Part shown: one piece after another, positions 7,571-33,266 of the stretch
Layout: every line of letters begins with the position of its first letter
Numbering within the stretch: position 1 is the stretch's first letter
NCBI GenBank assembly: GCA_002898715.1
Contig: BEIA01000006.1
Location: 1-44,947 of the forward strand
Length of the DNA: 44,947 nt
Direction: 5' to 3'
Origin: a bacterium HR24
Lineage (GTDB): Bacteria; Chloroflexota; Dehalococcoidia; SM23-28-2; HRBIN24
Notes under the pieces: generated by a model
The model's input: only the letters and a program-made list of their open reading frames with translations
The model's database searches: none
What the model was told of the DNA's origin: nothing
Made by a program: the position numbers and the translations under genes

Positions 7571-8026
7571 TCATTGCTGTCCCTCTGGGTCAGCGGAGTC
7601 CGTCTCCATACCATCGGGCCGGAAGAGGACAAGCCCCACCTCGTCCGAGAGGCGCTCGAAAGTGGCCCGCACCGGCATCTCCACCCGCACCTCCTCCGGC
7701 CGGCAACCGACGATGTTGGTGACCAGTCGGGGGCCCTCTTCCAGCTCCACGATGGCGAGGACGTACGGTACCATAGCAGCGAAGGCTGGCGTAGCCGCGC
7801 GCCGCACGACGGTATAGGTGTAGACCCGACCCCGCCCGGAGGCCTCGTGCCACTCCAGCTCCTCAGCCAGGCAACGTGGGCAGAAGGGCCGTGGATAGTA
7901 AATGAACAGGCCACAGCGCCGGCAGCGCTGCAACAGGAGCTTGCCCTCCGCCGCTCCCCGCCAGAAGGGGGCGCTGATACGGGTGGGCCGGGGCAGCGGC
8001 CGTTCCTGCACCTCTCGCTCGCTCAC
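7571..8026 (-). CDS. DUF35 zinc-ribbon/OB-fold protein, partner of the thiolase-fold enzyme
   Basis: A 151-residue protein. The N-terminal rubredoxin-like zinc ribbon carries C35, C38, C49 and C52 (RCRRCGLFIYYPRPFCPRC), and an OB-fold follows (GRVYTYTVV...VAIVELEEGPRLVTNIVG type). DUF35 proteins bind acyl-CoA and act as obligate partners of thiolase-like enzymes; in steroid degradation ChsH2-DUF35 pairs with the aldolase Ltp2. The start is the GTG at 8026, which overlaps the upstream stop in a GTGA arrangement, a sign of translational coupling to the thiolase-like gene. A longer ATG reading would run back into that gene and is unlikely. Confidence 0.88.
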   Translation of the reverse strand: MSEREVQERPLPRPTRISAPFWRGAAEGKLLLQRCRRCGLFIYYPRPFCPRCLAEELEWHEASGRGRVYTYTVVRRAATPAFAAMVPYVLAIVELEEGPRLVTNIVGCRPEEVRVEMPVRATFERLSDEVGLVLFRPDGMETDSADPEGQQ

Positions 8027-9192
8027 GGCTCCACTCCCAGGATCAGGCTTACCTGTTCGCTCATGATGCCGCCGTTCCCTTGCACGAAGGCCAGCTGACA
8101 ATCGCGCACCTGCCGCTCCCCTGCCTCCCCCCTCAGCTGGTAGACCGCCTCCAGCACGTGGGAGGCTCCCCCGGCCAGCCCGGGCTGCCCATAGGAGAGC
8201 TGGCCTCCGTGGGTGTTGACCGGGAAGTCTCCCCGGTAGGTCAGGTCATGCTCTTCTACGAACGGGCCACCGCGCCCCTTGGGGCAGAAACCGGCGTCCT
8301 CCAGAGTGACGATGACAGTGATCGTGTAGCAGTCGTACACCGATACCAGGTCGATGTCTTGGGGTTCTACCCCCGCCATCTCGAAGGCCCGCCTGGCCGT
8401 GTAAGCGACTGCGGAGGTGGTGAGATTCGGGGCATGGGAGGGCATGCTGTGGGTCACCTTCTCGCCAAACCCCAGGAGGTAGACAGGGGGGTGCAGGCCC
8501 TCCCGCGCCACCTCCGGCCTCGCCACGACGAAAGCGATGGCCCCCGAACAGGGCATGACGATCTCCAGCAGATGGAGAGGGTCCACGATGACAGGTGACT
8601 CCAAGACGTCGTCCACCGTGATGGGGCGCCCGTAGAAGAGGGCCCTCGGGTTGGCGCACGCGTTCTGGCGCTGATCGACCGCCACCTTGGCCCGCTGGCG
8701 GTCGGTGGTACCATACTCGTAGCCATGGCGCATGGCGATCATGGCGTACCCCGAGTTGGCCCCCATGGGGCCGTACGGACGCTCGAACTCCGGCAGGGGA
8801 AGGCCGGGCCAGCGCACCCCTCGGGTATAGAAGGACTCAGGATCCACCGCCTCTCCCGTTAGGCAGAGGACCGCCCGCGCCGCCCCCGCAGCCACGGCTG
8901 CCGCTGCCCGCCACACCATGCCCGCCGCCGTGGCGCCGCCCAGGTCGACGATGTCGGCGTAGGTGGGCGACAAGCCCAAGTACTCGGCCAACATGGAGGG
9001 AAGGGTCACCGGTGCCCCCACCAGCAGGGGCGCCACCAGCAGCCCGTCCACTTCCGCCGGCTCCAGCCCGGCGTCCACCATAGCCAGCCGCCCGGCCTCG
9101 AGCATCAGCTCCACCGCTGTCCTGTCACTCGCCTCTCGGAAAGGCCCCACCTCCCCTACCCCGCAGATAGCCGCCCTGCCACGCAGGTCCAT
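8023..9192 (-). CDS. Thiolase-superfamily protein, Ltp2-like (non-thiolytic, probable retro-aldolase)
   Basis: A 389-residue lipid-transfer-type thiolase homologue. The site where real thiolases hold the nucleophilic cysteine reads VDLGGATAAG (about residues 82-91) with no Cys, so classical thiolysis is excluded. Features shared with Ltp2 aldolases include SVYDCYTITV (284-293), the LEDAGFCPKG loop, RGDFPVNTHGGQLSYGQPG (320-338) and GNGGIMSEQ. Ltp2 with a DUF35 partner cleaves beta-hydroxyacyl-CoA by a retro-aldol step; the coupled DUF35 gene downstream supports the same role here. The start at 9192 follows GGAGG at good spacing and begins with the typical AAICGVGEV strand. It is first in the operon and divergent from a monooxygenase. 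Confidence 0.85.
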   Translation of the reverse strand: MDLRGRAAICGVGEVGPFREASDRTAVELMLEAGRLAMVDAGLEPAEVDGLLVAPLLVGAPVTLPSMLAEYLGLSPTYADIVDLGGATAAGMVWRAAAAVAAGAARAVLCLTGEAVDPESFYTRGVRWPGLPLPEFERPYGPMGANSGYAMIAMRHGYEYGTTDRQRAKVAVDQRQNACANPRALFYGRPITVDDVLESPVIVDPLHLLEIVMPCSGAIAFVVARPEVAREGLHPPVYLLGFGEKVTHSMPSHAPNLTTSAVAYTARRAFEMAGVEPQDIDLVSVYDCYTITVIVTLEDAGFCPKGRGGPFVEEHDLTYRGDFPVNTHGGQLSYGQPGLAGGASHVLEAVYQLRGEAGERQVRDCQLAFVQGNGGIMSEQVSLILGVEP

Positions 9193-9247
9193 CGTTCGCC
9201 TCCCTTGCGCTACAGCCTTCTCTTGGCCCACCTGAACGCGGGGGGGG

Positions 9248-9310
9248 TTGCAAAATGGAAACTCACACAATATGATACTGGACACAAAACGGTGAGCTGT
9301 GTCAAGGGGT
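9248..9310. promoter_or_regulatory. Divergent promoter/operator, related to the one at 15658-15715
   Basis: On the plus strand TTGCAA (9248-9253), 17 bases, then TATGAT (9271-9276) forms a good sigma-70-type promoter for the monooxygenase at 9320. On the minus strand TTGACA (complement of 9300-9305), 22 bases, then TATCAT (complement of 9272-9277) points toward the thiolase-like operon; that spacing is long, so this promoter may need help. The two -10 boxes overlap. The minus-strand sequence from 9310 to 9257 closely resembles plus-strand 15658-15706, differing by one 5-base gap and scattered substitutions. This suggests a shared regulator. Confidence 0.65.
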
Positions 9311-9319
9311 GCGAGCGGC

Positions 9320-10501
9320 ATGAAGGTGAGCTTGTTCTACCTGCCCACCATCGGTTCCCGACGGGACATCGAGGCCGGCCTGGCCGGCCTGCGCGACGAC
9401 CTCTACCAGCGCATGCTCCAGGAGCTGCGCGAGCAGGCCCAGCTGGCCGACGACCTGGGCTATCAGTCCATCTCCTTCACCGAGCACCACTTCCACATCG
9501 AGGGCTTTGAGCTGTCCAACAACCCCGTCCTTCTGGACCTGTTTGTGGCCCTGCAGACCAAGCGCATCCGCGTGGGGCAACTGGGCATCGTGCTGCCGGC
9601 CCACAACCCGCTGCAGGTGGCCGAGGACCTGGCCATGGTGGACCACATGACCGGCGGACGGCTGGACGTGGGCTTCGCCCGCGGCTACCAGCGGCGCTGG
9701 GTGGACGTGATGGCCCAGCACTACCACAACGTCCACGGCGTCCAGCCCGGCCAGCACGACGAGGTGGACCAGGCCAACCGCGAGGCCTTCGAGGAGTGCT
9801 ACCGTATCATCAAGCTGGCCTGGACGGAAGACCTCATCTCCTTCCAGGGCAAGTTCTGGAAGATCCCTCCCGAAGGCACCCCCTGGCCCCTGCAGGCCAC
9901 CCGCCAGTGGGGGGCGGGGGTGGACGAGGACGGCATCCTGCGCCAGATAGGCGTGGTGCCCAAGCCGTTACAGAAGCCCCACCCGCCCATCTTTCAGCCC
10001 TTCGCCTCCAGCGAGGCCACCATTCGCTGGTGCGCCCGCGAGGGCATCACTGCCATCCTGCCGCCCATGTATCTGCAGCTCCAGAACTACCTCTACGAGG
10101 TCTACCGCGAGGAGGCCTACCGTCATGGCCGCCGCCTGGCCGAGGGGGAAGGGCTGGGGGTGCTGCGGGACGTGGTGGTGGCCGACACCGATGAGGAGGC
10201 CCTGCGCCTGTGGCTGGAGGGGCCGGCCTTCGTGGGGGCGGCCTGGTTCGCGCCCTTCGGCTTCGACCGGGTGCTGCGGGAGCCCGGCCGGGAGTCGGAC
10301 CTGACGCCCCAGGAGCTGATGGACCGCTCTTTGGTGCTGGTGGGGAGCCCCGACACCGTCTGTTTCCAGCTGGAGCGGCTGCTCAGGCAGACGCCCGTCT
10401 CCTGGCTCTTCGCCTGGACCTACAACGGCGTCATACCCCACCAGAAGCTGATGCGCTCCCTGGAGCTCTTCGCCACCAAGGTGCTGCCCAATTTCCGCTG
10501 A
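9320..10501 (+). CDS. Luciferase-like (LLM class) flavin-dependent monooxygenase
   Basis: A 393-residue enzyme of the bacterial luciferase superfamily. These TIM-barrel proteins use reduced FMN or F420 to oxygenate or oxidise a substrate. Family marks include YQSISFTEHHF near residue 45, the RIRVGQLGIVLPAHNPLQVAEDLAMVDHMTGGRL block, VGFARGY, and PKPLQKPHPPI before the insertion-rich C-terminal part. The flavin type cannot be told from sequence here. The start at 9320 has AAGGGG upstream and begins with the usual first strand. The stop TGA overlaps the AGGAGG of the next gene. It heads the run monooxygenase, alcohol dehydrogenase, acyl-CoA dehydrogenase, aldehyde dehydrogenase. Confidence 0.9.
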   Translation: MKVSLFYLPTIGSRRDIEAGLAGLRDDLYQRMLQELREQAQLADDLGYQSISFTEHHFHIEGFELSNNPVLLDLFVALQTKRIRVGQLGIVLPAHNPLQVAEDLAMVDHMTGGRLDVGFARGYQRRWVDVMAQHYHNVHGVQPGQHDEVDQANREAFEECYRIIKLAWTEDLISFQGKFWKIPPEGTPWPLQATRQWGAGVDEDGILRQIGVVPKPLQKPHPPIFQPFASSEATIRWCAREGITAILPPMYLQLQNYLYEVYREEAYRHGRRLAEGEGLGVLRDVVVADTDEEALRLWLEGPAFVGAAWFAPFGFDRVLREPGRESDLTPQELMDRSLVLVGSPDTVCFQLERLLRQTPVSWLFAWTYNGVIPHQKLMRSLELFATKVLPNFR

Positions 10502-10512
10502 GGAGGGGTTCT

Positions 10513-11616
10513 ATGGCTTACAGGGTCAAGGCGGCGGTCTTCTACCGTCCCCATGAGCCCCTGGCCGTGGAGGAGCTGGAGCTGGAGGCGCCCCGGCAGG
10601 GGGAGGTGCTGGTGCGGGTAGCGGCCTGCGGCGTCTGCCACTCCGACCTCCACTTCATGGAGGGGCTGGTGCCCATCGCCTCGCCCTCGGTGCTGGGGCA
10701 CGAGGCGGCGGGCGTCGTCGAGGCGGTGGGCCACGGGGTGGAGTCGGTGCGCCCGGGCGACCACGTGGTCCTGAGCTTCATCCCCGCCTGCGGCCGCTGC
10801 CCCTACTGCGCGGTGGGGAGGCCCAACCTGTGCACGGTGGCCAACCGGGCCATGAGTCGCGGCACCATGCTGGACGGCACCCCCCGCTTCGCCAAGGAGG
10901 GGAGGCCCGTCTACCAGATGGGGGCCATCGGCGGCTTCGCCACCCGCACGGTGGTGCCCGAGGCGGGCTGCGTGAAGATAAGGGAGGACATGCCCCTGGA
11001 CCGGGCGGCCCTGCTGGGCTGCGGCGTCATGACCGGCGTGGGGGCGGCCATCAACACCGCCCGCGTGCAGGCGGGCAGCGACGTGGCGGTGGTGGGCTGC
11101 GGCGGGGTGGGGCTGAACGTGGTCCAGGGGGCGGCGTTGGCCGGGGCGGGGCGCATCATCGCCGTGGACGTGCTCCCCCACAAGCTGGAGCTGGCCCGCC
11201 AGTTCGGCGCCACCCATGCGGTGGACGCCTCGCGGGAGGACCCGGTGGCGGCGGTCCGCCAGATAGCCGCCGGCGGTGTCGACTACGCCTTCGAGGTCAT
11301 CGGCCGGCCGGAGACCATCCGCCAGGCCTTTGACATGACCCGACGGGGCGGGCTGACGGTGGTGGTGGGGGTAGCCCCCGCCGGCGCCGAGGTCTCCCTG
11401 CCCGCCGGTGCCTTCCTCACCGAGAAGACCATCACCGGCTCGGCCTACGGAGGGGCACGGATGAGCGTGGACGTGCCCCGCCTGGTGGAGCTTTACCTGG
11501 CCGGCCGGCTGAAGCTGGACCAGCTCATCAGCCGCCGCTATCCCCTGGAAGGCATCAACGACGCCTTCGACGCCCTGCGCCGGGGCGAGGTGGCCCGCAG
11601 CATCGTCGCCATGTGA
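10513..11616 (+). CDS. Zinc-dependent alcohol dehydrogenase (MDR family, class III-like)
   Basis: A 367-residue NAD(P)-dependent dehydrogenase. Catalytic zinc ligands are C42, H63 with E64, and C170; the structural zinc site is C93, C96, C99 and C107. The Rossmann motif VVGCGGVGLN lies around residues 194-202. The overall pattern (GVCHSDLH, LGHEAAGVVE, CGRCPYCAVGRPNLC) is that of alcohol/formaldehyde dehydrogenase-type MDR enzymes. It starts at ATG 10513 after AGGAGGGG. It probably oxidises the alcohol made by the upstream monooxygenase to an aldehyde or ketone, which the aldehyde dehydrogenase at 12840 could take further. A paralogue occurs at 17526. Confidence 0.93.
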   Translation: MAYRVKAAVFYRPHEPLAVEELELEAPRQGEVLVRVAACGVCHSDLHFMEGLVPIASPSVLGHEAAGVVEAVGHGVESVRPGDHVVLSFIPACGRCPYCAVGRPNLCTVANRAMSRGTMLDGTPRFAKEGRPVYQMGAIGGFATRTVVPEAGCVKIREDMPLDRAALLGCGVMTGVGAAINTARVQAGSDVAVVGCGGVGLNVVQGAALAGAGRIIAVDVLPHKLELARQFGATHAVDASREDPVAAVRQIAAGGVDYAFEVIGRPETIRQAFDMTRRGGLTVVVGVAPAGAEVSLPAGAFLTEKTITGSAYGGARMSVDVPRLVELYLAGRLKLDQLISRRYPLEGINDAFDALRRGEVARSIVAM

Positions 11617-11641
11617 GGCAGATCAGACTGGGAGGCCGGTC

Positions 11642-12832
11642 ATGGAGTTCCGCTTTTCGCCGGAGGAGGAGGCCTTCAGGCAGGAGGTGCGCGAGTTCCT
11701 GCGCCGCGAGTGGCCCGAGGAGGCGGCCGGGGGTGGCGCCGAGAGTCCCCTCGGTTACGGGGGAGGACGCGGCCTGGAGGAGATCAGGCGCTTCCAGAAG
11801 AAGCTGGCCCAGAAGGGGTGGTTGACCCTCGCCTGGCCCAAGGAGTACGGCGGCATGGGGGCCAGCATCATGAAGCAGGTCATCTTCAACGAGGAGATGG
11901 CCTACCACCGCGCCCCCCAGCAGCTGGGCGTCGGCCCCGACCGCGTCGGGCCCACCATCATCCTCTACGGCACCGAGGAGCAGAAGCGGGAGCACCTGCC
12001 GCCCATAGCCAACGCCGAGGTCATCTGGTGTCAGGGCTTCAGCGAGCCGGGGGCTGGCTCCGACCTGGCCTCCCTCCAGACCACCGCCGTTGAGGACGGG
12101 GACTACTTCGTGGTCAACGGGCAGAAGATCTGGACGTCCCTGGCCCACGTGGCCGACTGGATGATCCTCCTGGCCCGCACCGACCCCGACGCCCCCAAGC
12201 ACCGGGGCATCTCTTACTTTCTGGTGGACATGCGCACGCCCGGCATCACCGTGCGGCCCCTCATCGACATGACGGGGCGGCACGCCTTCAACCAGGTGTT
12301 CTTCGACAACGTGCGGGTGCCGAGGCGGAACCTGGTGGGGGAGCTGAACCGGGGCTGGTACGTGGCCGCTGCCACCTTGGACTTCGAGCGCTCGGGCATC
12401 AACCGTGTCATGGCCGGCATCCGCCTCTACGAGGAGCTGGTCCAGTTCGCCCGCGAGACGGAGCGGGACGGTCGGCCGCTGCTGGCGGTCCCTGCCGTCC
12501 GACACAAGCTGGCTGAGCTGAAGATCGAGTTCCAGGTGGGGAGGCTGCTGGCCTACCGGGTGGCCTGGGTCCAGTCCCAGGGCCGCATCCCCAACCAGGA
12601 GGCGTCCATGAGCAAGCTGTTCGGCTCGGAGCTGCAGCAGCGGCTGGCGCGGGCGGGCATGGAGATGCTGGGCCTGGGGGGCCAGCTCCGGCCCGGGAGC
12701 GAGTGGGCGCCCCTGGCGGGCCGCATCGCCGACTACTACCTGGGCTCGGTGGCCACCACCATCGCCGCCGGGACGTCCGAGGTGATGCGCAACATCATCG
12801 CCATGCGGGGCCTGGGGCTGCCGCGGGGGTAG
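11642..12832 (+). CDS. Acyl-CoA dehydrogenase
   Basis: A 396-residue FAD enzyme that introduces an alpha-beta double bond into an acyl-CoA. Seen are the N-terminal helical domain (EFRFSPEEEAFRQEVREFL), the FAD/substrate signature WCQGFSEPGAGSDLASLQT, the GQKIWTS motif, FNQVFFDNVRVP, and the C-terminal GTSEVMRN. It belongs to the FadE17/FadE26-like group, common in steroid and branched-chain catabolism and often heteromeric. It is a close paralogue of the gene at 19951. GGGAGG lies upstream of ATG 11642. It is 25 bases from the alcohol dehydrogenase gene and 7 bases before the aldehyde dehydrogenase gene. Confidence 0.93.
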   Translation: MEFRFSPEEEAFRQEVREFLRREWPEEAAGGGAESPLGYGGGRGLEEIRRFQKKLAQKGWLTLAWPKEYGGMGASIMKQVIFNEEMAYHRAPQQLGVGPDRVGPTIILYGTEEQKREHLPPIANAEVIWCQGFSEPGAGSDLASLQTTAVEDGDYFVVNGQKIWTSLAHVADWMILLARTDPDAPKHRGISYFLVDMRTPGITVRPLIDMTGRHAFNQVFFDNVRVPRRNLVGELNRGWYVAAATLDFERSGINRVMAGIRLYEELVQFARETERDGRPLLAVPAVRHKLAELKIEFQVGRLLAYRVAWVQSQGRIPNQEASMSKLFGSELQQRLARAGMEMLGLGGQLRPGSEWAPLAGRIADYYLGSVATTIAAGTSEVMRNIIAMRGLGLPRG

Positions 12833-12839
12833 GGGGGCC

Positions 12840-14348
12840 ATGGGACTGAGCCATGCCGAGCTTGCCGCACGCCTAGGGGTCGACCGCCGTTACCGCTTCC
12901 TGATCGGAGGGGAGCTGGTGGAGCCACGAGGTGAGCGCCACCTGGTGGCCGAGGACCCTTCTACGGGCAGACGCCTATACGACCTGCCGCAGGCCACGCC
13001 GGGTGAGGTGGAGGCGGCAGTGGCAGCGGCGCGCAAGGCGTTCGATGAAGGGCCGTGGCCGCGGCTGGCCCCGGCCGAGAGGAGCAGGGCACTGGAGCGG
13101 CTGGCCCGCTTGGTGGCGGCACACGAGGAGGAGCTGGCCCAGCTGGAGGCGCTGGAGGCAGGCGTGCCGCTGCGCATGGCCTCCTCGTTCTCCGTAAGGG
13201 CGCTGCGTCGCAACCTCGAACACTTCGCCAGCTGGCTCGACAAGCTCTACGGCCGGGTGGTGCCTGTGCCCCAGGGCGGTGCCCTGGACTACACCGTCTA
13301 TGAGCCGTACGGTGTGGTGGCCGTCATCCCGGCCTGGAACACTCCTAGCCTGTTCCTGGGCTCCAAGGCGGGAGCGGCTCTAGCAGCAGGCAACACGGTG
13401 GTGATCAAGCCCTCGGAGCTCGCCTCTCTGCCCGCCCTCCGCTTCGCCGAGCTAGCGGCCGAGGCAGACCTGCCGCCTGGGGTCGTCAACATCATCACCG
13501 GCGACGGGGAGGTAGGAAGGCTCCTCACCGAGCACCCGGGGGTGGACAAGGTGAGCTTCACCGGCGGCACGGCCAAGGGGCGCCAGATCATGATGCAGGC
13601 GGCACCACGTGCCGTGCAGCTGGAGCTGGGAGGGAAGTCGCCCCACATTATCTTTGCCGACGCCGATCTGGAGCGGGCCTCCCTGGCTGCGGCCCTGGGG
13701 GCTTTCGGCCTCAGCGGCCAGATGTGCGCGGCCGGCACGCGTCTGCTGGTCGAGGCCGCGGTTTACGAGGAGGTGCTCGAGCGCGTCATAAAGGTGGCCA
13801 GCTCGCTGAAGGTGGGGGACCCTCTCGACCCCGGAACCACCCTGGGCCCCCTCATCTCCCGGCAGGCGGTGGACCGGACCTTGCGTTACATCGAGGACGG
13901 GCTGGGACGGGGTGGGAACCTCCGCTGGGGGGGTCAGCGGCTAGCCCTCGAGGGAGAGCTGGCCGGAGGCCACTTCCTGCAGCCCGCCATCCTCGACGAG
14001 GTGGGCCCCGATTGGCCCATCGCCTGTGAGGAGGTGTTCGGGCCTGTCCTGGTCGCCTTCCCATTCGAGGACGAGGGACAGGCCCTGAGGTTGGCCAACG
14101 CCTCAGAGTACGGGCTGGCGGCCGGCGTGTGGACGAGAGACGTATTTCGGGCCCATAGAGTGGCGTCCGGCCTGCGGGCGGGCGTGGTGTGGGTAAACAC
14201 GTACGGCCCCTTGCCCTATAACGTGCCGTTCGGCGGCTTCAAGCTGAGCGGGGTGGGACGCGAGGCAGGGCTTGAGGGCTTGCTTGAATTCTGCCAAGTA
14301 AAGAACGTGTACCTGGAGTTGCGACCGCCCCGATCGCCCACGGCCTAG
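12840..14348 (+). CDS. Aldehyde dehydrogenase (NAD(P)-dependent, ALDH superfamily)
   Basis: A 502-residue enzyme oxidising an aldehyde to its carboxylate. Catalytic residues are in place: Asn167 (IPAWNTP), Lys190 (VIKPSE), Glu262 (LELGGKSP) and Cys296 (SGQMCAAGTR). The FTGGTAKGR nucleotide-binding turn precedes the glutamate. Length is normal. The usual PWN signature reads PAWN, a small insertion also found in some relatives. It follows the acyl-CoA dehydrogenase with a 7-base gap and closes the first plus-strand run. The carboxylate it makes would be a natural substrate for the CaiB or CoA-transferase enzymes nearby. Confidence 0.94.
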   Translation: MGLSHAELAARLGVDRRYRFLIGGELVEPRGERHLVAEDPSTGRRLYDLPQATPGEVEAAVAAARKAFDEGPWPRLAPAERSRALERLARLVAAHEEELAQLEALEAGVPLRMASSFSVRALRRNLEHFASWLDKLYGRVVPVPQGGALDYTVYEPYGVVAVIPAWNTPSLFLGSKAGAALAAGNTVVIKPSELASLPALRFAELAAEADLPPGVVNIITGDGEVGRLLTEHPGVDKVSFTGGTAKGRQIMMQAAPRAVQLELGGKSPHIIFADADLERASLAAALGAFGLSGQMCAAGTRLLVEAAVYEEVLERVIKVASSLKVGDPLDPGTTLGPLISRQAVDRTLRYIEDGLGRGGNLRWGGQRLALEGELAGGHFLQPAILDEVGPDWPIACEEVFGPVLVAFPFEDEGQALRLANASEYGLAAGVWTRDVFRAHRVASGLRAGVVWVNTYGPLPYNVPFGGFKLSGVGREAGLEGLLEFCQVKNVYLELRPPRSPTA

Positions 14349-14373
14349 GGTGGCTTCGGATCCCTAGCGGGGT

Positions 14374-15603
14374 TCAGAAGGCCAGGTCGCCCCTCAGGAG
14401 GCGGTGGGCCACAGTACGGCGCATGATCTCGGCCGATCCGTCGGCTATGCGAACGGTGCGCAGCTGGTGCCAGGCGTCGTAGAGCCTGACGTGGTTGGTC
14501 AACCCTAGCGCCCCCAGCACCTGCATGCAGCGGTCGACCGTTCGGAAGCCGGCCTCGCTGGCGAAGGCCTTGATCATGGCCGTTTCCTTGACGGCGCGCT
14601 CGCCTCGCTCCAGTCGGGCCGCGCAGTCGAGTCCCATGGTCCTGGCGGCATAGGTCTCGATGGCCGAATCGGCCAGGAGCCACTGCACCCCCTGGAACTC
14701 AGCGATGGGCCGGCCGAAGGCGACCCTCTCCTGGGCGTGACGCACGGCCATCTCCAGCGCCCAGCGGGAGAGGCCAACTGCCCTGGCGCAGTTGTAGAGA
14801 CGTCCGGTGTTGACCCCTTCCAGGGCGATCTCGAAGGCGCCGCCTACCTCGCCCAGCAGGCGCCGCGCGGGCACCCTCAGGCCATGGAAGCGGAGGACAG
14901 CCTCCATCCCGCCGACCCGACCATAGAGGCGCAGCACCTCGGCCACCTCATAGCCGGGCCAAGCGGCGTCCACCAGGAAGCAGGAGATGCCCCCCTGACG
15001 TCGGGCAGCAGCCTCTGGATCGGTGACGGCGAACACGAGGGCATGGTCGGCGTAGGGCCCGTTAGATATCCACTGCTTCACCCCATCCACCACCCATACG
15101 TCCCCTTCCCTCCGCCCCGTCGTCGTGAGGGCCCAGGCGTCAGAGCCGGCCTGGGGCTCGCTAAGGGCGAAGCAGCTAGTTCGCTCGCCCGAGAGGAGGC
15201 CGGGCAGCACCTCAGCCCTGGCCGGGTCGGGCAGGTGGCGCAGGTGGGGACCGGGGCCGCTGGTCCAGTGGGCAACCGCCTGGTAAGGGAGCAGCCGGTC
15301 TCCCCCAACGTGATGGTAGAGGGCTTCCCAGACAACGAACAGCGCGGTGGGCCCGAGGCCCTCGCCGCCCAGGTCTCTGGGAACGAACAGGTTGTAGTGG
15401 CCTGCCCGGGCGGATGCCGTCCTCACCCGCCGCATCAGCGCCAGGGCCTCAGGGACGAGCCTCCCGTCGCTCCCATATAGGCGCTGGGCATCCTCCAGAA
15501 GGTCCCTAGCGCCCTCTTCGAGGGGCTCCACCACCTCCTTCACGAACTGGATCACAGCCTCAGCAGCCTGCTCCGCTCTAGCGATCGCCTCGTGATCGGT
15601 CAT
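14374..15603 (-). CDS. Acyl-CoA dehydrogenase (short/medium-chain type)
   Basis: A 409-residue acyl-CoA dehydrogenase from a different branch than the two plus-strand copies. Motifs seen are CFALSEPQAGSDAWALTTT, KQWISNGPYADHALVF, FHGLRVPARRLLG, ERVAFGRPIAEFQGVQWLLAD and the C-terminal ADGSAEIMRR, which holds the glutamate region of the FAD site. GGGAGG lies upstream of the ATG at 15603. It converges with the aldehyde dehydrogenase gene (25 bases between stops, no clear terminator hairpin) and diverges from the XRE-cupin regulator. The divergent arrangement suggests it is a direct target of that regulator. Confidence 0.92.
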   Translation of the reverse strand: MTDHEAIARAEQAAEAVIQFVKEVVEPLEEGARDLLEDAQRLYGSDGRLVPEALALMRRVRTASARAGHYNLFVPRDLGGEGLGPTALFVVWEALYHHVGGDRLLPYQAVAHWTSGPGPHLRHLPDPARAEVLPGLLSGERTSCFALSEPQAGSDAWALTTTGRREGDVWVVDGVKQWISNGPYADHALVFAVTDPEAAARRQGGISCFLVDAAWPGYEVAEVLRLYGRVGGMEAVLRFHGLRVPARRLLGEVGGAFEIALEGVNTGRLYNCARAVGLSRWALEMAVRHAQERVAFGRPIAEFQGVQWLLADSAIETYAARTMGLDCAARLERGERAVKETAMIKAFASEAGFRTVDRCMQVLGALGLTNHVRLYDAWHQLRTVRIADGSAEIMRRTVAHRLLRGDLAF

Positions 15604-15657
15604 GACCGAACGCCTCCCTTTTCGGGCGCCTCGCCAGAAGGCCCCCTCGCTTGCGCC

Positions 15658-15715
15658 ACCCCTTGACAGGGCTCGTCTTGTCCACTATCGTATTGCACGA
15701 GTTTCGAACTGACAA
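15658..15715. promoter_or_regulatory. Overlapping divergent promoters with shared operator sequence
   Basis: On the plus strand TTGACA (15663-15668), 17 bases, TATCGT (15686-15691) reads toward the XRE-cupin gene. On the minus strand TTGTCA (complement of 15710-15715), 17 bases, TACGAT (complement of 15687-15692) reads toward the acyl-CoA dehydrogenase. The two -10 boxes occupy almost the same bases, so a protein bound here would affect both genes. Bases 15658-15706 align with the reverse strand of 9257-9310. Shared blocks include ACCCCTTGACA, GCTC, TCCA, TATC, TATTG and GAGTTTC. Autoregulation by the XRE-cupin protein is the simplest model. Confidence 0.7.
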
Positions 15716-15739
15716 CTGCATCAAGGGCAGAGCGAGGGT

Positions 15740-16342
15740 ATGGCTGGAGACGTTACTAGCGGCGTGGAGCGGCTGGTCACCGAGGCGTTGCGGCTCTTGC
15801 CCAAGCGCCTGCGTCAGGCGCGGGAGCAAGAGGGCCTGAGCCTGCGGCAGCTCGCCCGGCGGGCAGGGGTGGCGGCCAGCACCATCCAGAAGATTGAGAA
15901 GGGGGCCCTGGTGCCGAGCGTCGCCGTCGTCCTCCGGCTGGCGGAGGCGCTCGGGAGGCGTCCGTCCTATTTCATCAGCCCCGTCGACGAGGAGCGGGAG
16001 CTGGAACTGGTGCGGGCAGGTGAGGGGAGGCCCATCAGCAAGCCCGGGGGGGCCGTGGCTTTCTACTACGTGGCCGAGCCCCTCAAGGAGCCCATTATGG
16101 AGGCCTATCTGGTGGAGGTGGCGCCCGGCGGCCACAGCGGCGAGGAGAGCCCCCTGGCCTATCGAGGAGAGGAGATAGTGCTCTGCCTTCGGGGGCACCT
16201 ACTCTTCGAGTTTGAGGGCGGGGAGGTCGTGGAGCTCCGTCCGGGCGACGTGCTCCACTTTAAGGGGCATCTACCCCACCGTTGGTACAATCCCGGCCCT
16301 GAGAGGGCGGAGATGCTCATGGTCTGCTCCTTTGCTCGATAG
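15740..16342 (+). CDS. XRE-family regulator with C-terminal cupin domain
   Basis: A 200-residue transcription factor. The helix-turn-helix occupies about residues 22-80 (RLRQAREQEGLSLRQLARR, then GVAASTIQKIEKG). A cupin_2 sensor domain occupies about 115-198, with RGEEIVLCLRGHLLFEFEG and the HFKGHLPHRWYNPG metal or ligand motif. HTH-cupin regulators commonly sense small organic acids or amines in catabolic operons. Its gene lies between the divergent acyl-CoA dehydrogenase and the long plus-strand run from 16439, and its promoter overlaps the divergent one. It is the best candidate local regulator of this region. The ATG at 15740 has GAGGG close upstream. Confidence 0.9.
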   Translation: MAGDVTSGVERLVTEALRLLPKRLRQAREQEGLSLRQLARRAGVAASTIQKIEKGALVPSVAVVLRLAEALGRRPSYFISPVDEERELELVRAGEGRPISKPGGAVAFYYVAEPLKEPIMEAYLVEVAPGGHSGEESPLAYRGEEIVLCLRGHLLFEFEGGEVVELRPGDVLHFKGHLPHRWYNPGPERAEMLMVCSFAR

Positions 16343-16438: not shown

Positions 16439-17515
16439 ATGATCGACTTGGGCATGCTGCACCTGTTCGAACACCCGGCCGGGAGGACGGAGCAGCAGGT
16501 GCTGCAAGAGCAACTTGACATCATGGTGCGGGCCGAGGACTACGGCTTCCACTCGGTCTGGCCGGCGGAGCACCACTTCAGCGAATACGGCTACTGCGCG
16601 TCGCCAGCCGTGCACTTGGCCTACGTGGCCGCTCGCACCAAGCGGCTGCGCCTGGGTACGGGAGTGGTGGTGCTTCCCCTCAACCACCCCGTCCGGGTGG
16701 CCGAAGACTATGCGACGCTGGACCTCATCTCAGACGGCCGGGTGGAACTGGGCCTGGGCCGGGGCTACCAGCCCCACGAGTTCCGAGGCTACGGCGTGGA
16801 CCAGTCCCACTCCCGCCAGATCTTTCAGGAAGGGGTGGAGGTGATAGTGCGGGCGTGGACCCAGGACCGCTTCAGCTACCACGGTCAGTTCTACCGATTC
16901 GAGGACCTGGAGGTGAGGCCCAAGCCTTTGCAGAAGCCCCACCCGCCCATCTGGATGGCCGCCCTCTCGGACGACTCCTTCGCCCTCTGCGGCCGTTACG
17001 GGTTCAACCTGCTCACCGCCTTCGCCTTCGGGGCCGACGTCGACCGCATCCACCTGAACATCGAGCGGTGGAAGGAGGCCCTCCGTCAGGCGGGCCGCGA
17101 CCCTTCCAGCTACCGGGTGGGCTGCTTGGCCATGACCTACGTGGCCGAGACCAGCCAACAGGCGCTGGCAGACTTCGCCGAGCCGGTCCTGTGGTACTAC
17201 CACACCTTTGCTAAATACGTTGCGCCGCCCGCCGGCCACCCACCTATCCCCACCTACGAGCTTTATGCCCTGACGCGCGACTTCGTGCAGTCGGTGACCT
17301 GGGAGGACCTGGTGCGCCGCGGGGCGGTGGTGGTGGGCAGCCCCGATCAGGTAGTGGACCGTATCGGCCAGATCGTGGAGAAGACGGGCTTGAGCCTCTA
17401 CCTGGCCTGGATACGCATCGGCGGCCTCGACCACGCCAAGGTGCTCAAGTGCATGGAGCTCATGGCGAGCAAGGTGATGCCCCAGCTCAAGGGCATGGGG
17501 GCACCGGTGCCATAG
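16439..17515 (+). CDS. Luciferase-like (LLM class) flavin-dependent monooxygenase, second copy
   Basis: A 358-residue bacterial luciferase-superfamily enzyme. It carries the same family blocks as the gene at 9320: YGFHSVWPAEHHF, RLRLGTGVVVLPLNHPVRVAEDYATLDLISDGRVELGLGRGYQPHEF and PKPLQKPHPPIWMAAL. It is 35 residues shorter, mainly lacking the central insertion. It starts at 16439 behind a strong AGGAGGTG. It leads a run of six genes with short gaps (8-46 bases), which looks like one transcription unit ending at 24936. The substrate is unknown; the gene order mirrors the 9320 run. Confidence 0.9.
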   Translation: MIDLGMLHLFEHPAGRTEQQVLQEQLDIMVRAEDYGFHSVWPAEHHFSEYGYCASPAVHLAYVAARTKRLRLGTGVVVLPLNHPVRVAEDYATLDLISDGRVELGLGRGYQPHEFRGYGVDQSHSRQIFQEGVEVIVRAWTQDRFSYHGQFYRFEDLEVRPKPLQKPHPPIWMAALSDDSFALCGRYGFNLLTAFAFGADVDRIHLNIERWKEALRQAGRDPSSYRVGCLAMTYVAETSQQALADFAEPVLWYYHTFAKYVAPPAGHPPIPTYELYALTRDFVQSVTWEDLVRRGAVVVGSPDQVVDRIGQIVEKTGLSLYLAWIRIGGLDHAKVLKCMELMASKVMPQLKGMGAPVP

Positions 17516-17525: not shown

Positions 17526-18629
17526 ATGAAAGCTGCCGTGCTGCGCGCCGTCGGCGCCCCCCTCACGGTGGAGGAGGTGGATCTATCCGGTCCTGGCCCC
17601 AATGAGGTCCTCATCAGGGTCGTCGCCAGCGGTGTGTGCCACTCTGACCTGCACGTGATGGAGGGGGTCCTGCCCTACCCCCTCCCCACCGTGCTGGGGC
17701 ACGAGGCGGCGGGGGTAGTGGAGGACGTGGGGCCGGGGGTGAGCGCCCTACGTCGGGGCGCTCACGTGGTGGTGGCAGTGGTCCCATCCTGCGGGCGCTG
17801 CCGCCTGTGCCTGCGGGGCCGGCCCAACCTGTGCACCGCCATCAGGGGGAGGCCGGGCGTCATGGCGGACGGGACCAGACGTCTGCGCCTACCGGGAGGG
17901 GAGGAGGTCAACCACTTCACTATGATCTCCTCCTTTGCCCAGTTCGCGGTGGTGCATGAGGCGGCAGCGGTGCCGGTGAGGGAAGACATCCCCCTGGAGC
18001 GGGCCTGTCTCCTGGGCTGTGGCCTCCTCACAGGGTGGGGTGCCGCCGTCAACCGCGCGCGGGTGGCCCCTGGGAGCTCTTGCGTGGTGTTGGGCTGTGG
18101 CGGGGTGGGTCTGGGCATCGTCCAGGGCTGCGCCGTGCGGCAGGCGGAGCCCATCGTGGCCGTCGATCTCTGGCCTCAGCGGCTGGAGGTGGCGGCCCGC
18201 TTGGGCGCCACCCATACGCTGCTGGCAGGGCAGGAGGACGTACCGGCCCTGGTGCGGCAGCTCACTGGAGGAGGTGCTGATTATGTCTTCGATGCGGTGG
18301 GGAGCCCGCAAACGGCGGCGCTCGCCCTTTCCTGCCTGGGCAGGGGAGGGACAGCCGTGCTGGTGGGTGTGGGCCAGCGGGACGCCAGCCTGAGCGTCCC
18401 CATCACCGCCACGGTCCTCAATGAGCGAGCCGTCCTGGGCTGCGACTACGGGTCGGCCTGGCCTCAGAGGGATATCGCCCTGCTCGCCGACATGTATGCC
18501 GCCGGCCGACTCAAGCTGGACGAACTTGTGGATCGAACTTATCCCCTGGAAGGGGTCAACGAGGCGCTGGCCGACCTCAAGGAGGGGAGGGCGTTACGAC
18601 CGGTGATCCTGCCGTGGGGGGACAGCTAG
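17526..18629 (+). CDS. Zinc-dependent alcohol dehydrogenase (MDR family), second copy
   Basis: A 367-residue paralogue of the enzyme at 10513. Catalytic zinc ligands are C38 and H59 with E60, plus a cysteine in LLGCGLLTG. Structural zinc ligands are C89, C92, C95 and C103 (CGRCRLCLRGRPNLC). The nucleotide motif VLGCGGVGLG is intact. It follows the monooxygenase by 10 bases. The same pairing of monooxygenase and dehydrogenase in both runs suggests a two-step oxidation of related substrates. Confidence 0.93.
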   Translation: MKAAVLRAVGAPLTVEEVDLSGPGPNEVLIRVVASGVCHSDLHVMEGVLPYPLPTVLGHEAAGVVEDVGPGVSALRRGAHVVVAVVPSCGRCRLCLRGRPNLCTAIRGRPGVMADGTRRLRLPGGEEVNHFTMISSFAQFAVVHEAAAVPVREDIPLERACLLGCGLLTGWGAAVNRARVAPGSSCVVLGCGGVGLGIVQGCAVRQAEPIVAVDLWPQRLEVAARLGATHTLLAGQEDVPALVRQLTGGGADYVFDAVGSPQTAALALSCLGRGGTAVLVGVGQRDASLSVPITATVLNERAVLGCDYGSAWPQRDIALLADMYAAGRLKLDELVDRTYPLEGVNEALADLKEGRALRPVILPWGDS

Positions 18630-19950: not shown

Positions 19951-21123
19951 ATGCGCTTTCGTCTATCGCCCGAGGACGAGGCCTTCCGCCAGGAGGTGCG
20001 CTCCTGGCTGCGGGAGCACCTCCCCCGCGACTGGGAGGACCAGGTCCCCGAGGGCGAGACGTGGGAGTTCACCCGCCACTTCACCCGTAAGCTGGCCGAA
20101 AAGGGTTGGGTGGTGCCCCACTGGCCCAGGGAATACGGCGGCCTGGGCCTCTCCCTGTGGCAGCAGCTGGTCTTCCGCGAGGAGATGGCCTACCACCGGG
20201 CGCCGCTGGGCTACATCGCCATCGGCGCCGACTGGGCGGGGCCCACCATCATCGTCTACGGCACCGAGGAGCAGAAGCGGGAGCACCTGCCCCGCATCGC
20301 CCGGGCCGAGGTGATGTGGTGCCAGGGCTTCTCGGAGCCCAACGCCGGCTCCGACCTGGCCAACCTGCAGACGCGGGCCGTGCGCGACGGCGACGAGTAC
20401 GTGGTCAACGGCCAGAAGATCTGGACATCGGGCGCCCACCGCGCCGACTGGATGATCCTCCTGGCCCGCACCGATCCCGAGGCGCCCAAGCACAAGGGCA
20501 TCTCCTACTTCCTGGTGGACATGAAGAGCCCGGGCATCACCGTCCGCCCCCTCATCGACATGATGGACAACCACGGCTTCAACCAGGTCTTCTTCGAGAA
20601 CGTGCGGGTGCCGGCCCGCAACCTGCTGGGGGAGGAGAACCGGGGCTGGTATATGGCCACCACCACCCTGAACTTCGAGCGCTCCTCCATCGGCGGCGCG
20701 GCGGCAGCGAGACGGCTGCTGGAAGACCTGGTGGAATACGTGCGCGACTCCTCCCTGCCCGAGGGCAGGCGCCTGGACGACCCTCGTGTGCGCTACCAGC
20801 TGGGCGAGGCGGCGGTGGAGCTGGAGATAGGGCGGCTCCTCTCCTACCGGGTCGTCTCCCTGCAAGCGCGGGGGCTGGTGCCCAGCTATGAAGCGTCGGT
20901 GGCCAAGCTCTACAACACCGAGATGGGGCTGCGGCTGGCGCGGCGGGGCCTGGCAATCCTGGGGCTGTACGGGCAACTGCAGCCCAAGTCCCGCTGGGCG
21001 CGCCTGCGGGGGCGCTTCGAGCGCCAGTATCTGTGGATGACGGGCATGGTGGTGGGCGGCGGCACGTCCGAGATCCAGCGCAACCTGATAGCCATCCGTG
21101 GCCTGGGCCTGCCGAGGGGCTGA
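19951..21123 (+). CDS. Acyl-CoA dehydrogenase, paralogue of the 11642 gene
   Basis: A 390-residue FAD-dependent acyl-CoA dehydrogenase. It shares nearly every motif with the gene at 11642: MRFRLSPEDEAFRQEVRSWL, WCQGFSEPNAGSDLANLQT, GQKIWTS, FNQVFFENVRVP, GGGTSEIQRN and the same ending RGLGLPRG. The similarity along the whole length points to duplication within the region. It starts 27 bases after the binding-protein gene behind GGGAGGGGA. Such pairs can form heteromeric enzymes in FadE-type systems, but here the two genes sit in different runs, so separate substrates are equally likely. Confidence 0.92.
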   Translation: MRFRLSPEDEAFRQEVRSWLREHLPRDWEDQVPEGETWEFTRHFTRKLAEKGWVVPHWPREYGGLGLSLWQQLVFREEMAYHRAPLGYIAIGADWAGPTIIVYGTEEQKREHLPRIARAEVMWCQGFSEPNAGSDLANLQTRAVRDGDEYVVNGQKIWTSGAHRADWMILLARTDPEAPKHKGISYFLVDMKSPGITVRPLIDMMDNHGFNQVFFENVRVPARNLLGEENRGWYMATTTLNFERSSIGGAAAARRLLEDLVEYVRDSSLPEGRRLDDPRVRYQLGEAAVELEIGRLLSYRVVSLQARGLVPSYEASVAKLYNTEMGLRLARRGLAILGLYGQLQPKSRWARLRGRFERQYLWMTGMVVGGGTSEIQRNLIAIRGLGLPRG

Positions 21124-25091: not shown

Positions 25092-26141
25092 ATGTTCTAT
25101 GCTGGCCTGGACCTTGGCAAGAGGCATTCCTACGTGGCGGTGGTGGACGAGAGGGGTAGGATCGTGAGGCAGGGGAGGGCCGAGAGCAGCCCCGAGGGGT
25201 TGCTTTGGGCCCTCTCGGGCCTGGGCCCAGGGCTCAAGCTTGCCCTGGAGGCCACCAGGGCCTGGGAGTGGGCCTACGACCTCCTCTCGGACCAGGGGCT
25301 GGCGGTGACCCTCGTCCATCCCGCCGTGTCCAGGGCCATAGCCTCGGCCAGGCCGGGGAAGCGACCGGCTGGACGCCCACATCCTGGCCCAGATATGCGG
25401 GCAGACCTGGTGGCCAGGGCCTACGTGGCCCACAAGGAGACGAGGGCCCTGAGGGAGCTCCTGCGCTACCGGGCCTTCCTGGTGGGCCTCGAGAGGGCGG
25501 TGAAGAACCGCATCCATGCCCTCCTGGACCGGCTGCCGGTGCGGCCGCCCATGGCCACCCCCTTCTCCAGGAAGGGGCTCGGGTGGCTGGCGGGGCTCAG
25601 GTTGCCCGAGCCCTACGGCGCGGAGCTTGCGGGCCTGTTGCGGCTGCTCTCGGCCCTCAGGCAGGAGCTTGCGCTGGTGGCAGGGAGGGTGCGGGAGGTG
25701 GCCAGGAGGGACGAGCGGGCCCTCTTGCTCACCACCGTGCCCGGCCTGGGCTACTACCTGGCCCTGCTGGTGCTGGCCGAGATAGGGGACGTCTCCCGCT
25801 TCCCCAGCGCCAGGCACCTCGCCAGCTATGCCGGGCTGGTGCCCTCCACCTACGCCTCGGGAGGTGTGGTAAGGCACGGCGCCATCACCAAGGGGGGCTC
25901 CCGCTTCCTCAGGTGGGCCCTAGTGGAGGCGGCCATCCATGCCGTGCGGCGGCCTGGGCCCCTGCAGGAGTTCTACCGGCGGCTCCTGGTGGGCAAGGGG
26001 GCCCAGAAGGCGAGGGTAGCGGTGGCAAGGAAGCTCGCCAAGGCCATCTTCTGGATGCTCAAGACGGGCAGGTCCTACAGGGAGGTGGAGCCGTACCTCG
26101 CTCCCCAGGGGCAGGCGGGCTCGAGGCTTTACATGGCCTAG
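25092..26141 (+). CDS. IS110-family transposase, full length but catalytic segment out of frame
   Basis: A 349-residue recombinase of the IS110 (DEDD/Piv) family. The N-terminal RuvC-like domain has GLDLGKRHS (Asp7) and LALEATRAW (Glu53). A C-terminal IS116/IS110/IS902 domain follows (VPGLGYYLALLVLAEIGDVSRF, SYAGLVPS, GAITKGGSRFLRWALVEAA). Residues 91-102 read RPAGRPHPGPDM where the family has DRLDAHILAQIC, and that exact wording is present one frame over from 25363. Two small deletions before and after it restore the frame. The protein therefore keeps its length but loses the D-x-x-D catalytic pair and is probably inactive, unless the site is a sequence error. Confidence 0.85.
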   Translation: MFYAGLDLGKRHSYVAVVDERGRIVRQGRAESSPEGLLWALSGLGPGLKLALEATRAWEWAYDLLSDQGLAVTLVHPAVSRAIASARPGKRPAGRPHPGPDMRADLVARAYVAHKETRALRELLRYRAFLVGLERAVKNRIHALLDRLPVRPPMATPFSRKGLGWLAGLRLPEPYGAELAGLLRLLSALRQELALVAGRVREVARRDERALLLTTVPGLGYYLALLVLAEIGDVSRFPSARHLASYAGLVPSTYASGGVVRHGAITKGGSRFLRWALVEAAIHAVRRPGPLQEFYRRLLVGKGAQKARVAVARKLAKAIFWMLKTGRSYREVEPYLAPQGQAGSRLYMA

Positions 26142-26387: not shown

Positions 26388-27569
26388 CTAAGCCCCAGGA
26401 TGCCGCCGCTCCGCCACGACAAGGACGTCGACATCTTTGGTGAGGCGTAACAACCTGTCCGCGATCGCGCCCCGCAGCAGCTCGTGCAGGCGGCTACGTC
26501 GCGAATGACCGACGACGATGGTGTCCACGTTCTTCTCGCGTGCGACCTGCGCAAGCGCAGCCGCTACGTCGTTCGCCTTGACCCGAATGCATTCGGCCCC
26601 CAGGTCTTCGGCAAGACGAAAGTGCTCCTCCAGCCGCCGCTTCGCCTCCGGCGAGGCATGTGCCCAGGCCGGCGTCTCGACGAACACGGCCAACAGGTCT
26701 GACTGCTGACGCTGCGCCAGGCGCCAGGCGCGCCGAATCAGGTACTGCGAACGCGGACCGTCGTCGATCGCCACCATCAGCCGTTCGCCGGCCGGCCAGA
26801 CCGCCCCGATCCCATGCTGGCGCATGTACTGCTCAAGGTCTTGTTCGACCCGCGCCGCCATCTTTCTGAGGGCCAGCTCACGCAGCGCCGCGAGGTTCCC
26901 TTCACGGAAGAAGTGACGCAGTGCCTGCTCGGCGCGCTCCCGCGGATACACATCCCCATCGCGGATGCGCTGTCGCAGCGTATCCGGCGTCACGTCTATC
27001 AGTTCGATCTCGTCCGCCTGGTCGACGACCCAGTCGGGGATGCGCTCGCGCACCCGCACGCCGGTGATGCTCTCGACGATGTCGGCCAGGGACTCCAGGT
27101 GTTGGATGTTGAGGGTGCTGATGACGGTGATGCCGTGGTCGAGCAGTTCTAACACGTCCTGCCAGCGCTTGGCGTGTTTAGAGCAGTTGGGGACGTTGGT
27201 ATGGGCGAGCTCGTCGACGAGGGCCACGGCCGGCCGACGGCGGATGATGGCATCGACATCCATTTCCTCGACCGTGACGCCCTTGTACTCGCATCGCTTG
27301 CGGGGAATGATCTCCAGATCCCCGATAGCCTCGATGGTCCTGGGGCGACCGTACGTCTCGACGAAGCCGATGACGCAGTCGACGCCGCGCGCCTTTAGCC
27401 GGTGCAGCTCCATGAGAGCGGCGTACGTCTTGCCCACGCCCGGCGCCATGCCCAGGTAGATGCGCAGCCGACCCCGCGCGCCGGCCCCAGCCTCCCGCCG
27501 CACCCGCTCGAGCATCTCGCTAGGCGTGGGCCGCTCTTCCCGACGCCCGCCGGGCCGCTCGTGGCTCAT
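26388..27569 (-). CDS. kdpD: KdpD sensor half: KdpD N-terminal domain plus universal stress domain, no kinase
   Basis: A 393-residue cytoplasmic protein equal to the N-terminal part of KdpD. The KdpD domain has a Walker A motif GMAPGVGKT (40-48), a Walker B-like VALVDELAHTN, and the signature GITVISTLNIQHLESL. A Usp domain follows from about residue 260 (RLMVAIDDGPRSQYLIRRAW...DTIVVGHSRRSRLHELLRG). The transmembrane, GAF and kinase parts of a normal 900-residue KdpD are absent; a separate gene at 34053-35672 supplies them. It is the last gene of the kdpFABC operon, 9 bases after kdpC. In E. coli this half senses cytoplasmic cues and binds ATP and c-di-AMP, so it may tune the separate kinase. 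Confidence 0.9.
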   Translation of the reverse strand: MSHERPGGRREERPTPSEMLERVRREAGAGARGRLRIYLGMAPGVGKTYAALMELHRLKARGVDCVIGFVETYGRPRTIEAIGDLEIIPRKRCEYKGVTVEEMDVDAIIRRRPAVALVDELAHTNVPNCSKHAKRWQDVLELLDHGITVISTLNIQHLESLADIVESITGVRVRERIPDWVVDQADEIELIDVTPDTLRQRIRDGDVYPRERAEQALRHFFREGNLAALRELALRKMAARVEQDLEQYMRQHGIGAVWPAGERLMVAIDDGPRSQYLIRRAWRLAQRQQSDLLAVFVETPAWAHASPEAKRRLEEHFRLAEDLGAECIRVKANDVAAALAQVAREKNVDTIVVGHSRRSRLHELLRGAIADRLLRLTKDVDVLVVAERRHPGA

Positions 27570-27578
27570 CGCTCGGGA

Positions 27579-28169
27579 TCACGGCCTATCAAGTCGGTCG
27601 AGGGCGAGGTTCAGCTTCAGCACGTTAACGCGCGGCTCGCCGAGGAAGCCCAGGGTTCCGCCCTCCTTGAGGCGATCCACGAGTGCGCGCACCTCGTCCT
27701 CCGAGAGCCCGCGTGCCCGCGCCACGCGCCCGACCTGTAGGTAGGCGTTAGCGAGACTGATATGCGGGTCGAGTCCACTGCCAGATGCAGTCACTGCGTC
27801 TGCCGGAACCGGTGCGTCGGGAGCAAGCCCGTTCTCCTGCCGATATGCCTCCGCCCGTTCCCGCACGGTGGCAATCAGCTTCGCGTTCGTCGGCCCGAGG
27901 TTGGAAGCGCCGGAGCTCGTCGCATCATAGCCATCGCTGCCAGCTGCCGATGGCCGCGGATGGAAGTAGTCTGGCCGGGTGAACGCCTGCCCGATGAGCT
28001 CCGAGCCGATAACGTTGCCGCTAGCATCACGGATCAGGCTGCCGTTTGCCTGGTAAGGGAAAAGGACTTGGGCGATGCCGGTGACCGTCAGCGGGTAGAC
28101 CAGACCCGTGAGCGCTGTGAGCAGCACCACCGCGAGGACGGCGACCCTCGCCTGTCGTGCAATCTCCAC
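27579..28169 (-). CDS. kdpC: Potassium-transporting ATPase subunit C (KdpC)
   Basis: A 196-residue subunit of the KdpFABC potassium pump. One transmembrane helix (about residues 8-32, [23 protein letters not shown]) is followed by a periplasmic domain with the conserved blocks [50 protein letters not shown] and [16 protein letters not shown]. KdpC raises the affinity of the complex and links KdpA to KdpB. All family blocks are present. It lies between kdpB (14-base gap) and the kdpD-like sensor half. Confidence 0.96.
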
Positions 28170-28183
28170 GATGCCTCCCTCCG

Positions 28184-30388: not shown

Positions 30389-30416
30389 TGTTGCTCTCTC
30401 CCTTCCAGTGCTCCGC

Positions 30417-32144: not shown

Positions 32145-32452
32145 TGTCCCGCGTCACCTTCCCGTGGGTTGGCCGTGTTCGTCCGACGGGCAAACCAGAG
32201 AACGATTACGCGGGTTTCGGCCCGTCCCCAGCAACACAGGCCGTACTCTCGCGCAAGCCGCTCGCTTTCACGCAGGATCTCGAGCGCCTCGCCCGGCTCG
32301 CCGTCCAGCGGGAGGGTCAGCGAGACGCGGGCGACCAGGTCCGCCGCCGTCCGCGCCAGCAAGAGACAGGAGGCCCGCACCCGCTCCATGGCGGAGGCGA
32401 CCGCTCCCGATCGGCTTAGGCAGTTTCGCCGTCGCCGCCGCTCGGACGACAT
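32141..32452 (-). CDS. Small hypothetical protein (103 aa) coupled to kdpA
   Basis: This 103-residue basic protein is read between kdpF and kdpA. Its stop overlaps the kdpA start as ATGA and its own start lies 11 bases after the kdpF stop. The tight packing argues that it is real. It contains [20 protein letters not shown] and a stretch [24 protein letters not shown], probably helical, and ends [23 protein letters not shown]. No transmembrane segment or known domain is recognised. Longer readings from 32644 would run back through kdpF in another frame and were rejected. Confidence 0.6.
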
Positions 32453-32463
32453 CGGCCGTCCCC

Positions 32464-32553
32464 TCAGAGGCGGTCGGCGTCGATAAGCGCGTAGACCAGG
32501 TAGAGTGCCAGGGCGATCGAGATGATGCCTCCAACCACCCATTCCCACTCCAT
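32464..32553 (-). CDS. kdpF: KdpF, small membrane subunit of the potassium pump
   Basis: A 29-residue single-helix peptide, MEWEWVVGGIISIALALYLV followed by YALIDADRL. The pattern of a short Gly/Ile-rich helix ending YLxYALxxADRL, located upstream of kdpA, matches KdpF, which stabilises the KdpABC complex in the lipid bilayer. It starts at 32553, where its ATG shares one base with the TGA of the preceding small gene (TGATG), and ends 11 bases before the next start. Confidence 0.85.
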   Translation of the reverse strand: MEWEWVVGGIISIALALYLVYALIDADRL

Positions 32554-32651
32554 CAGCCGCGCCGTTGCCGGAGGCGCTCGCAAGCCAGCACGTAGCCCAG
32601 TGCGAGCGCGAAGAACGCACCGGTTGCCACCACGAACGCCACATCAGCCAT
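32553..32651 (-). CDS. 32-residue single-helix membrane peptide in kdp operon
   Basis: A very short gene encoding MADVAFVVATGAFFALALGY then VLACERLRQRRG: one hydrophobic helix and a positively charged tail, so the C-terminus should face the cytoplasm. It overlaps the end of the receiver gene by 8 bases and its stop shares a base with the kdpF start. Packing this tight suggests that it is translated. It could be a second small regulator or subunit of the Kdp pump. No named family is recognised. Confidence 0.6.
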   Translation of the reverse strand: MADVAFVVATGAFFALALGYVLACERLRQRRG

Positions 32652-33150: not shown

Positions 33151-33193
33151 CGTCGCGGTATGCCCCGGTGCCTAGCGTCTCGACAGGCCACCC

Positions 33194-33266
33194 GAGATAC
33201 TGTGGATCGGATGCGCTCAACGGACGCTCAACGGGGCCTCCATGGATCTCAACGATCGCTCAACAT
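33194..33266 (-). promoter_or_regulatory. Phased direct repeats (probable KdpE boxes) and promoter of the kdp structural operon
   Basis: Four copies of GTTGAGC (one as GTTGAGA) occur on the minus strand, seen on the plus strand as GCTCAAC at 33215, 33226 and 33258 and TCTCAAC at 33247. Their spacings are 11, 21 and 11 bases, so all face the same side of the helix, as expected for tandem OmpR/PhoB-type dimers such as KdpE. A TATCTC (complement of 33194-33199) lies downstream, 15 bases from the last TTGAGC. The site lies between kdpE and the first gene of the pump operon. KdpE binding is inferred. Confidence 0.6.

Follow-up and report, generated by a model that had tools for sequence, protein, structure and literature searches.

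In Pseudomonas, XRE-cupin proteins act locally, each repressing one or a few metabolic promoters nearby; they bind palindromes in core promoters, and at least one of the intergenic regions adjoining their own gene is occupied (PMC7901475). PsdR recognises TTAAG-N5-CTTAA, and one half of its site may be imperfect (PMC10965056). Here, we describe a locus with an XRE-cupin gene on a contig of the Chloroflexota bacterium HR24 (BEIA01000006.1, positions 1 to 44,947; this whole stretch of 44,947 nucleotides is referred to as the window). Two intergenic regions of this locus, sites A and B, are near-copies whose similarity goes beyond chance. We propose, with a probability of about 0.6, that both derive from one promoter-operator segment by copying and are bound by the XRE-cupin protein whose gene lies beside site B (Table 1).

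Table 1. Features of the XRE-cupin locus, in coordinates of the window
Feature	Coordinates	Strand	Basis or remark
Thiolase-like protein gene, divergent to LLM1	8023..9192	-	Pfam Thiolase_C_1; start from ortholog comparison
Site A, whole conserved element	9242..9315	-	profile match 69.8 bits and alignment
Site A, setting			between thiolase gene (-, start 9192) and LLM1 (+, start 9320)
Proposed XRE-cupin operator, site A, GTTTCCATTTTGCAAC	9247..9262	-	position matches ortholog footprint; binding predicted
Promoter of LLM1 and the genes behind it, sigma-70-like TTGCAA-17-TATGAT	9248..9276	+	promoter scan
TTGACA-22-TATCAT facing thiolase gene	9272..9305	-	alignment; missed by promoter scan
Luciferase-like monooxygenase gene LLM1	9320..10501	+	first of LLM1-alcohol dehydrogenase-acyl-CoA dehydrogenase-aldehyde dehydrogenase
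Acyl-CoA dehydrogenase gene, divergent to XRE-cupin gene	14374..15603	-	domain search
Site B, whole conserved element	15653..15721	+	profile match 62.6 bits
Site B, setting			between acyl-CoA dehydrogenase gene (-, start 15603) and XRE-cupin gene (+, start 15740)
XRE-cupin operon promoter TTGACA-17-TATCGT	15663..15691	+	promoter scan; layout also upstream of orthologs
Acyl-CoA dehydrogenase promoter TTGTCA-17-TACGAT	15687..15715	-	promoter scan; -10 overlaps opposing -10
Proposed XRE-cupin operator, site B, GTTTCGAACTGACAAC	15701..15716	+	pattern and ortholog footprint; binding predicted
XRE-cupin regulator gene (200 aa)	15740..16342	+	HTH_3 residues 24-78, Cupin_2 residues 124-196
Luciferase-like monooxygenase gene LLM2	16439..17515	+	XRE-cupin/LLM pair conserved in 3 other genomes

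The initial annotation had aligned minus-strand 9310-9257 with plus-strand 15658-15706, and this likeness proved real. Between the reverse complement of 9204-9319 and 15604-15739, the best local alignment scores 42, a value reached by none of 3,000 dinucleotide shuffles (maximum 29), and the opposite orientation scores 16, which is the shuffle mean. When only the bases outside TTGACA, the -10 heptamer and the complete dyad were shuffled, 42 was again absent from 20,000 shuffles (maximum 39). Every sequence block named at the outset is found in the same order at both sites (CACCCCTTGACA, GCTC, TGTCCA, TATC, TATTG and GAGTTTC), and a further shared block, CAAC, lies past the end first given, so that the likeness, from CACCCCTTGACA to CAAC, is a little longer than first stated. 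The DNA flanking the element differs between the two sites. Scanning the full genome for the motif, as the annotation had suggested, showed that it is not scattered at random: a core 25-mer with up to three mismatches has exactly two matches in the window and the same two in the whole 2.05-Mb genome, and a 76-position profile of the element likewise finds only sites A and B. These were pattern and profile searches of an assembly of 159 contigs that is 92% complete, and further sites could be missing from it. In 24 relatives, the profile gave no match above noise. The description of both sites as lying between divergent catabolic genes stands for site A; at site B, one of the two partners is the regulator gene itself.

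The remainder of the window holds several features of other kinds. A TetR regulator lies at about 394-930, at the window start, near genes that by eye resemble those for molybdenum hydroxylases. The contig ends (1-385 and 44562-44947) form a 387-base inverted repeat that is 89% identical, and copies of a repeated element therefore probably make up the two ends. A kdp potassium-transport operon occupies 26388-35672, in which a short KdpD-sensor protein is fused to a universal-stress domain; two response-regulator proteins are encoded there as well, along with a separate histidine kinase. A transposase-like reading frame, its family judged by eye, is present at 25092-26141, and a match to a Mutator-family transposase at 36979-37683. 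Paralogous enzyme genes are also present, and indicate that the region has undergone duplication: at the DNA level, the acyl-CoA dehydrogenase genes at 11642-12832 and 19951-21123 are 79.5% identical over 600 bases, and the alcohol dehydrogenase genes at 10498-11616 and 17526-18629 are 71% identical.

Promoter scanning recognised only three promoters at the two sites: two well-formed, divergent and overlapping ones at site B, and a single well-spaced one at site A, pointing towards LLM1. The spacings originally claimed between the -35 and -10 boxes, 17 bases on the XRE-cupin side and 22 on the thiolase side, are present, and opposing -10-like boxes overlap at both sites. The view that the 22-base arrangement functions as a thiolase promoter and differs only in strength is, however, unsupported, as the scan did not score it as a promoter and the well-spaced promoter faces the LLM1 operon. 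A 22-base spacer is far outside what works well for sigma-70 polymerase, and for this reason we read TTGACA-22-TATCAT as probably a damaged promoter with five extra bases. Since every ortholog XRE-cupin promoter has 17-base spacing, the extra bases would most simply be an insertion at site A. It is doubtful that thiolase expression is driven from this site. Read in the LLM1/acyl-CoA dehydrogenase direction, sites A and B align without gaps from the -35 box past the start site, and the five-base difference falls in the transcribed leader.

The HTH_3 (3.7e-15) and Cupin_2 (4.2e-14) matches of the regulator both exceed their curated cut-offs, giving it the N-terminal XRE helix-turn-helix and C-terminal cupin sensor domain of an XRE-cupin protein. 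Its orthologs are 64% identical in genome G002, 61% in G003 and 47% in G222, which belongs to another family; none was found in G001 (95% complete), the sole other genome of the same genus searched. In the window and these three genomes, the XRE-cupin gene is followed by a luciferase-like monooxygenase gene, which speaks to linkage only, and the four proteins have nearly identical recognition helices (A/P-STI-Q/L-KIE). Upstream of the three orthologs we found the same composite layout, TTGACA-17-(-10 box)-9..11 bases-GTTTCC, though the surrounding DNA has diverged. This layout matches site B, and it matches site A too except for the five extra bases. The shared six-base block at like distance scores 23 of 24 across the three orthologs and site B, a level that none of 600 shuffles reaches. 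We accept the XRE-cupin protein as the regulator mainly because of this footprint, which is drawn from sequences that played no part in defining the element. The initial annotation's preference for it as common regulator is to that extent supported, with binding as the predicted step. If sites A and B are copies, they do not count as independent evidence.

The ortholog promoter of G002 has a perfect 16-bp dyad, GTTTCCTAAAGGAAAC, at the only place in that genome within two mismatches of it, and the corresponding dyad in G003 is GTTTCCCTTAGGAAAA. Searches with GTTTCCTWWAGGAAAC and three mismatches gave no enrichment over control in G003 and only a mild one in G002, and we therefore claim no further targets in these genomes. 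The LLM1 and thiolase orthologs of G002 and G003 have no such element, which indicates that the second target is not conserved. More distant XRE-cupin homologs (about 25-35% identity) showed no matching upstream dyad; several of them lie directly behind acyl-CoA dehydrogenase genes with no clear promoter of their own. A scan of genome contigs for homologs returned weak matches only, restricted to the helix-turn-helix region.

Both sites of the window carry a decayed dyad, GTTTC-N6-(A/G)CAAC, and this candidate operator extends about 10 bases past the coordinates of the initial annotation. Its left half, GTTTC, is conserved in all orthologs and kept in 7 of the 7 composite sites compared, and the right half matches poorly at both sites of the window and in G222. 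The full dyad can be read clearly in G002 and almost as clearly in G003, but only weakly in G222 and the window. Site A has the ortholog consensus C at the sixth operator position (GTTTCC) and site B does not. At site A, the candidate operator and the -35 box of the LLM1 promoter overlap; at site B, the candidate operator spans the start region of the XRE promoter together with the -35 box of the divergent promoter. Genome-wide, GTTTCN6RMAAC matches three times, at sites A and B and at position 4474 of contig C46, where a coding region starts; TTGACAN30-38GTTTC matches only at A and B (0 for the reversed-pattern control). A search with CCCCTTGACANNGCTC and two mismatches gave hardly any enrichment over its control. 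The same operator-like element is thus found at both promoters and is rare elsewhere in the genome, as in a regulon of two promoters.

In G222, TTGACAN30-38GTTTC matches the XRE promoter, a near-copy at the end of contig 173, and a promoter on contig 180. The near-copy is accompanied by the start of a second, near-identical XRE-cupin gene. Two near-identical amidohydrolase/XRE-cupin junctions occur in this genome, L115 (G222:C173) at 1400-1719 and L106 (G222:C225) at 1150-1560, and represent a duplication or a strain mixture. The contig 180 promoter, TTGACA-17-TACCAT-10-GTTTCC, lies away from the regulator gene and upstream of genes for a flavin reductase and a nitronate monooxygenase. Luciferase-like monooxygenases commonly need the reduced flavin that such a reductase supplies, which would make this promoter a sensible further target. 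Four further G222 matches have no clear -10 box, so a single match is weak evidence.

Could the likeness of the two sites have arisen without a common XRE-cupin regulator? A chance likeness of two sigma-70 promoters through the consensus boxes TTGACA and TATNNT is hardly credible, given 0 of 3,000 shuffles, 0 of 20,000 with the boxes fixed, and only two matches in 2.05 Mb. Duplication of a promoter segment might instead have produced the two sites, without any shared regulator at work today, so that their resemblance reflects ancestry only. This would account for conservation that reaches columns outside the promoter and operator elements, and the nearby paralogs (acyl-CoA dehydrogenases, alcohol dehydrogenases) show that duplication has occurred. 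We nevertheless consider it rather unlikely, because the C of GTTTCC is kept at site A and not at site B, because GTTTC persists in every composite site compared, and because the DNA flanking the element is unlike.

Another regulator, either the TetR protein or one encoded elsewhere, might also bind the shared region, for example at a small dyad, TCRTATTGYRYGA, that lies over the -10 boxes. On direct view, the TCR...YGA of this dyad changes symmetrically, with A-T in A and G-C in B, and a 41% homolog of the window TetR is encoded next to the LLM1 ortholog of G001. The initial annotation had also named TetR as a candidate, but no matching element lies by the TetR gene or elsewhere in the window, and the ortholog promoters have GTTTCC and not the small dyad. 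We regard this alternative as improbable.

Sites A and B as copies of one segment bound by the XRE-cupin protein thus remain our preferred reading. The likeness goes further than the shared boxes would demand, and this speaks for a copied stretch of DNA. A site-B-like segment was most likely the source of site A, which would then have acquired five bases in the spacer from -35 to -10; the thiolase-facing promoter would as a result be weak or dead. We considered and rejected joint duplication of promoter and enzyme block as a single unit, since the element is oppositely oriented relative to the two LLM-dehydrogenase blocks; in addition, LLM1 and LLM2 are only 38% identical over their matched part. 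The poor right half of the dyad and the non-conserved second target weigh against the preferred reading, and so does G001, in which the regulator was not found but an LLM1 ortholog (93%) is kept. The DNA upstream of that ortholog is quite different and includes a divergent TetR gene, so that LLM1 regulation has been rewired within the genus. We tentatively suggest that an autoregulated repressor's promoter-operator cassette reached a second divergent junction by copying, inverted relative to the paralogous enzyme genes, and recruited a second catabolic operon within one genus.

The most likely kind of system is a local, autoregulated XRE-cupin regulon, in which a metabolite-sensing repressor encoded beside site B is probably common to both sites. 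An XRE-cupin dimer would bind the imperfect dyad. Binding at site B would mask the -35 box of the acyl-CoA dehydrogenase promoter as well as the start region of the promoter that the regulator itself uses; binding at site A would do likewise for the -35 box of the LLM1 operon promoter and for the start region on the thiolase side. One operator could in this way silence both directions at each junction. When ligand-free, the protein would repress the divergent units and its own operon, and a pathway intermediate in the cupin domain would release repression. Predicted targets are the XRE-LLM2-alcohol dehydrogenase operon, the divergent acyl-CoA dehydrogenase gene, and the LLM1-alcohol dehydrogenase-acyl-CoA dehydrogenase-aldehyde dehydrogenase genes.

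Our analysis proposes a single switch for two catabolic gene groups, in a lineage that has been little studied and is rich in luciferase-like monooxygenases. It provides a candidate operator that can be tested for a group of XRE-cupin regulators not yet characterised, and a possible small example of regulon growth through promoter copying.

The locus resembles those of ErfA, PsdR, PauR and their relatives in Pseudomonas in that the regulator combines a helix-turn-helix with a cupin domain and has metabolic neighbours; few, gene-adjacent targets and palindromic sites in core promoters would be further parallels (PMC7901475). The proposed tolerance of a poor right half also has a parallel in PsdR, which still binds a non-palindromic site at lasR with one imperfect half (PMC10965056); that site has a single mismatch, whereas the right half-sites here are more degenerate. 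The dyads differ as well, TTAAG-N5-CTTAA for PsdR (PMC10965056) and GTTTCC-N4-GGAAAC as the predicted operator here, as do the genes, which in this case encode luciferase-like monooxygenase, acyl-CoA dehydrogenase and thiolase. By analogy, the regulon proposed here appears to fit the local XRE-cupin kind described in Pseudomonas, with an operator sequence and a gene set of its own.
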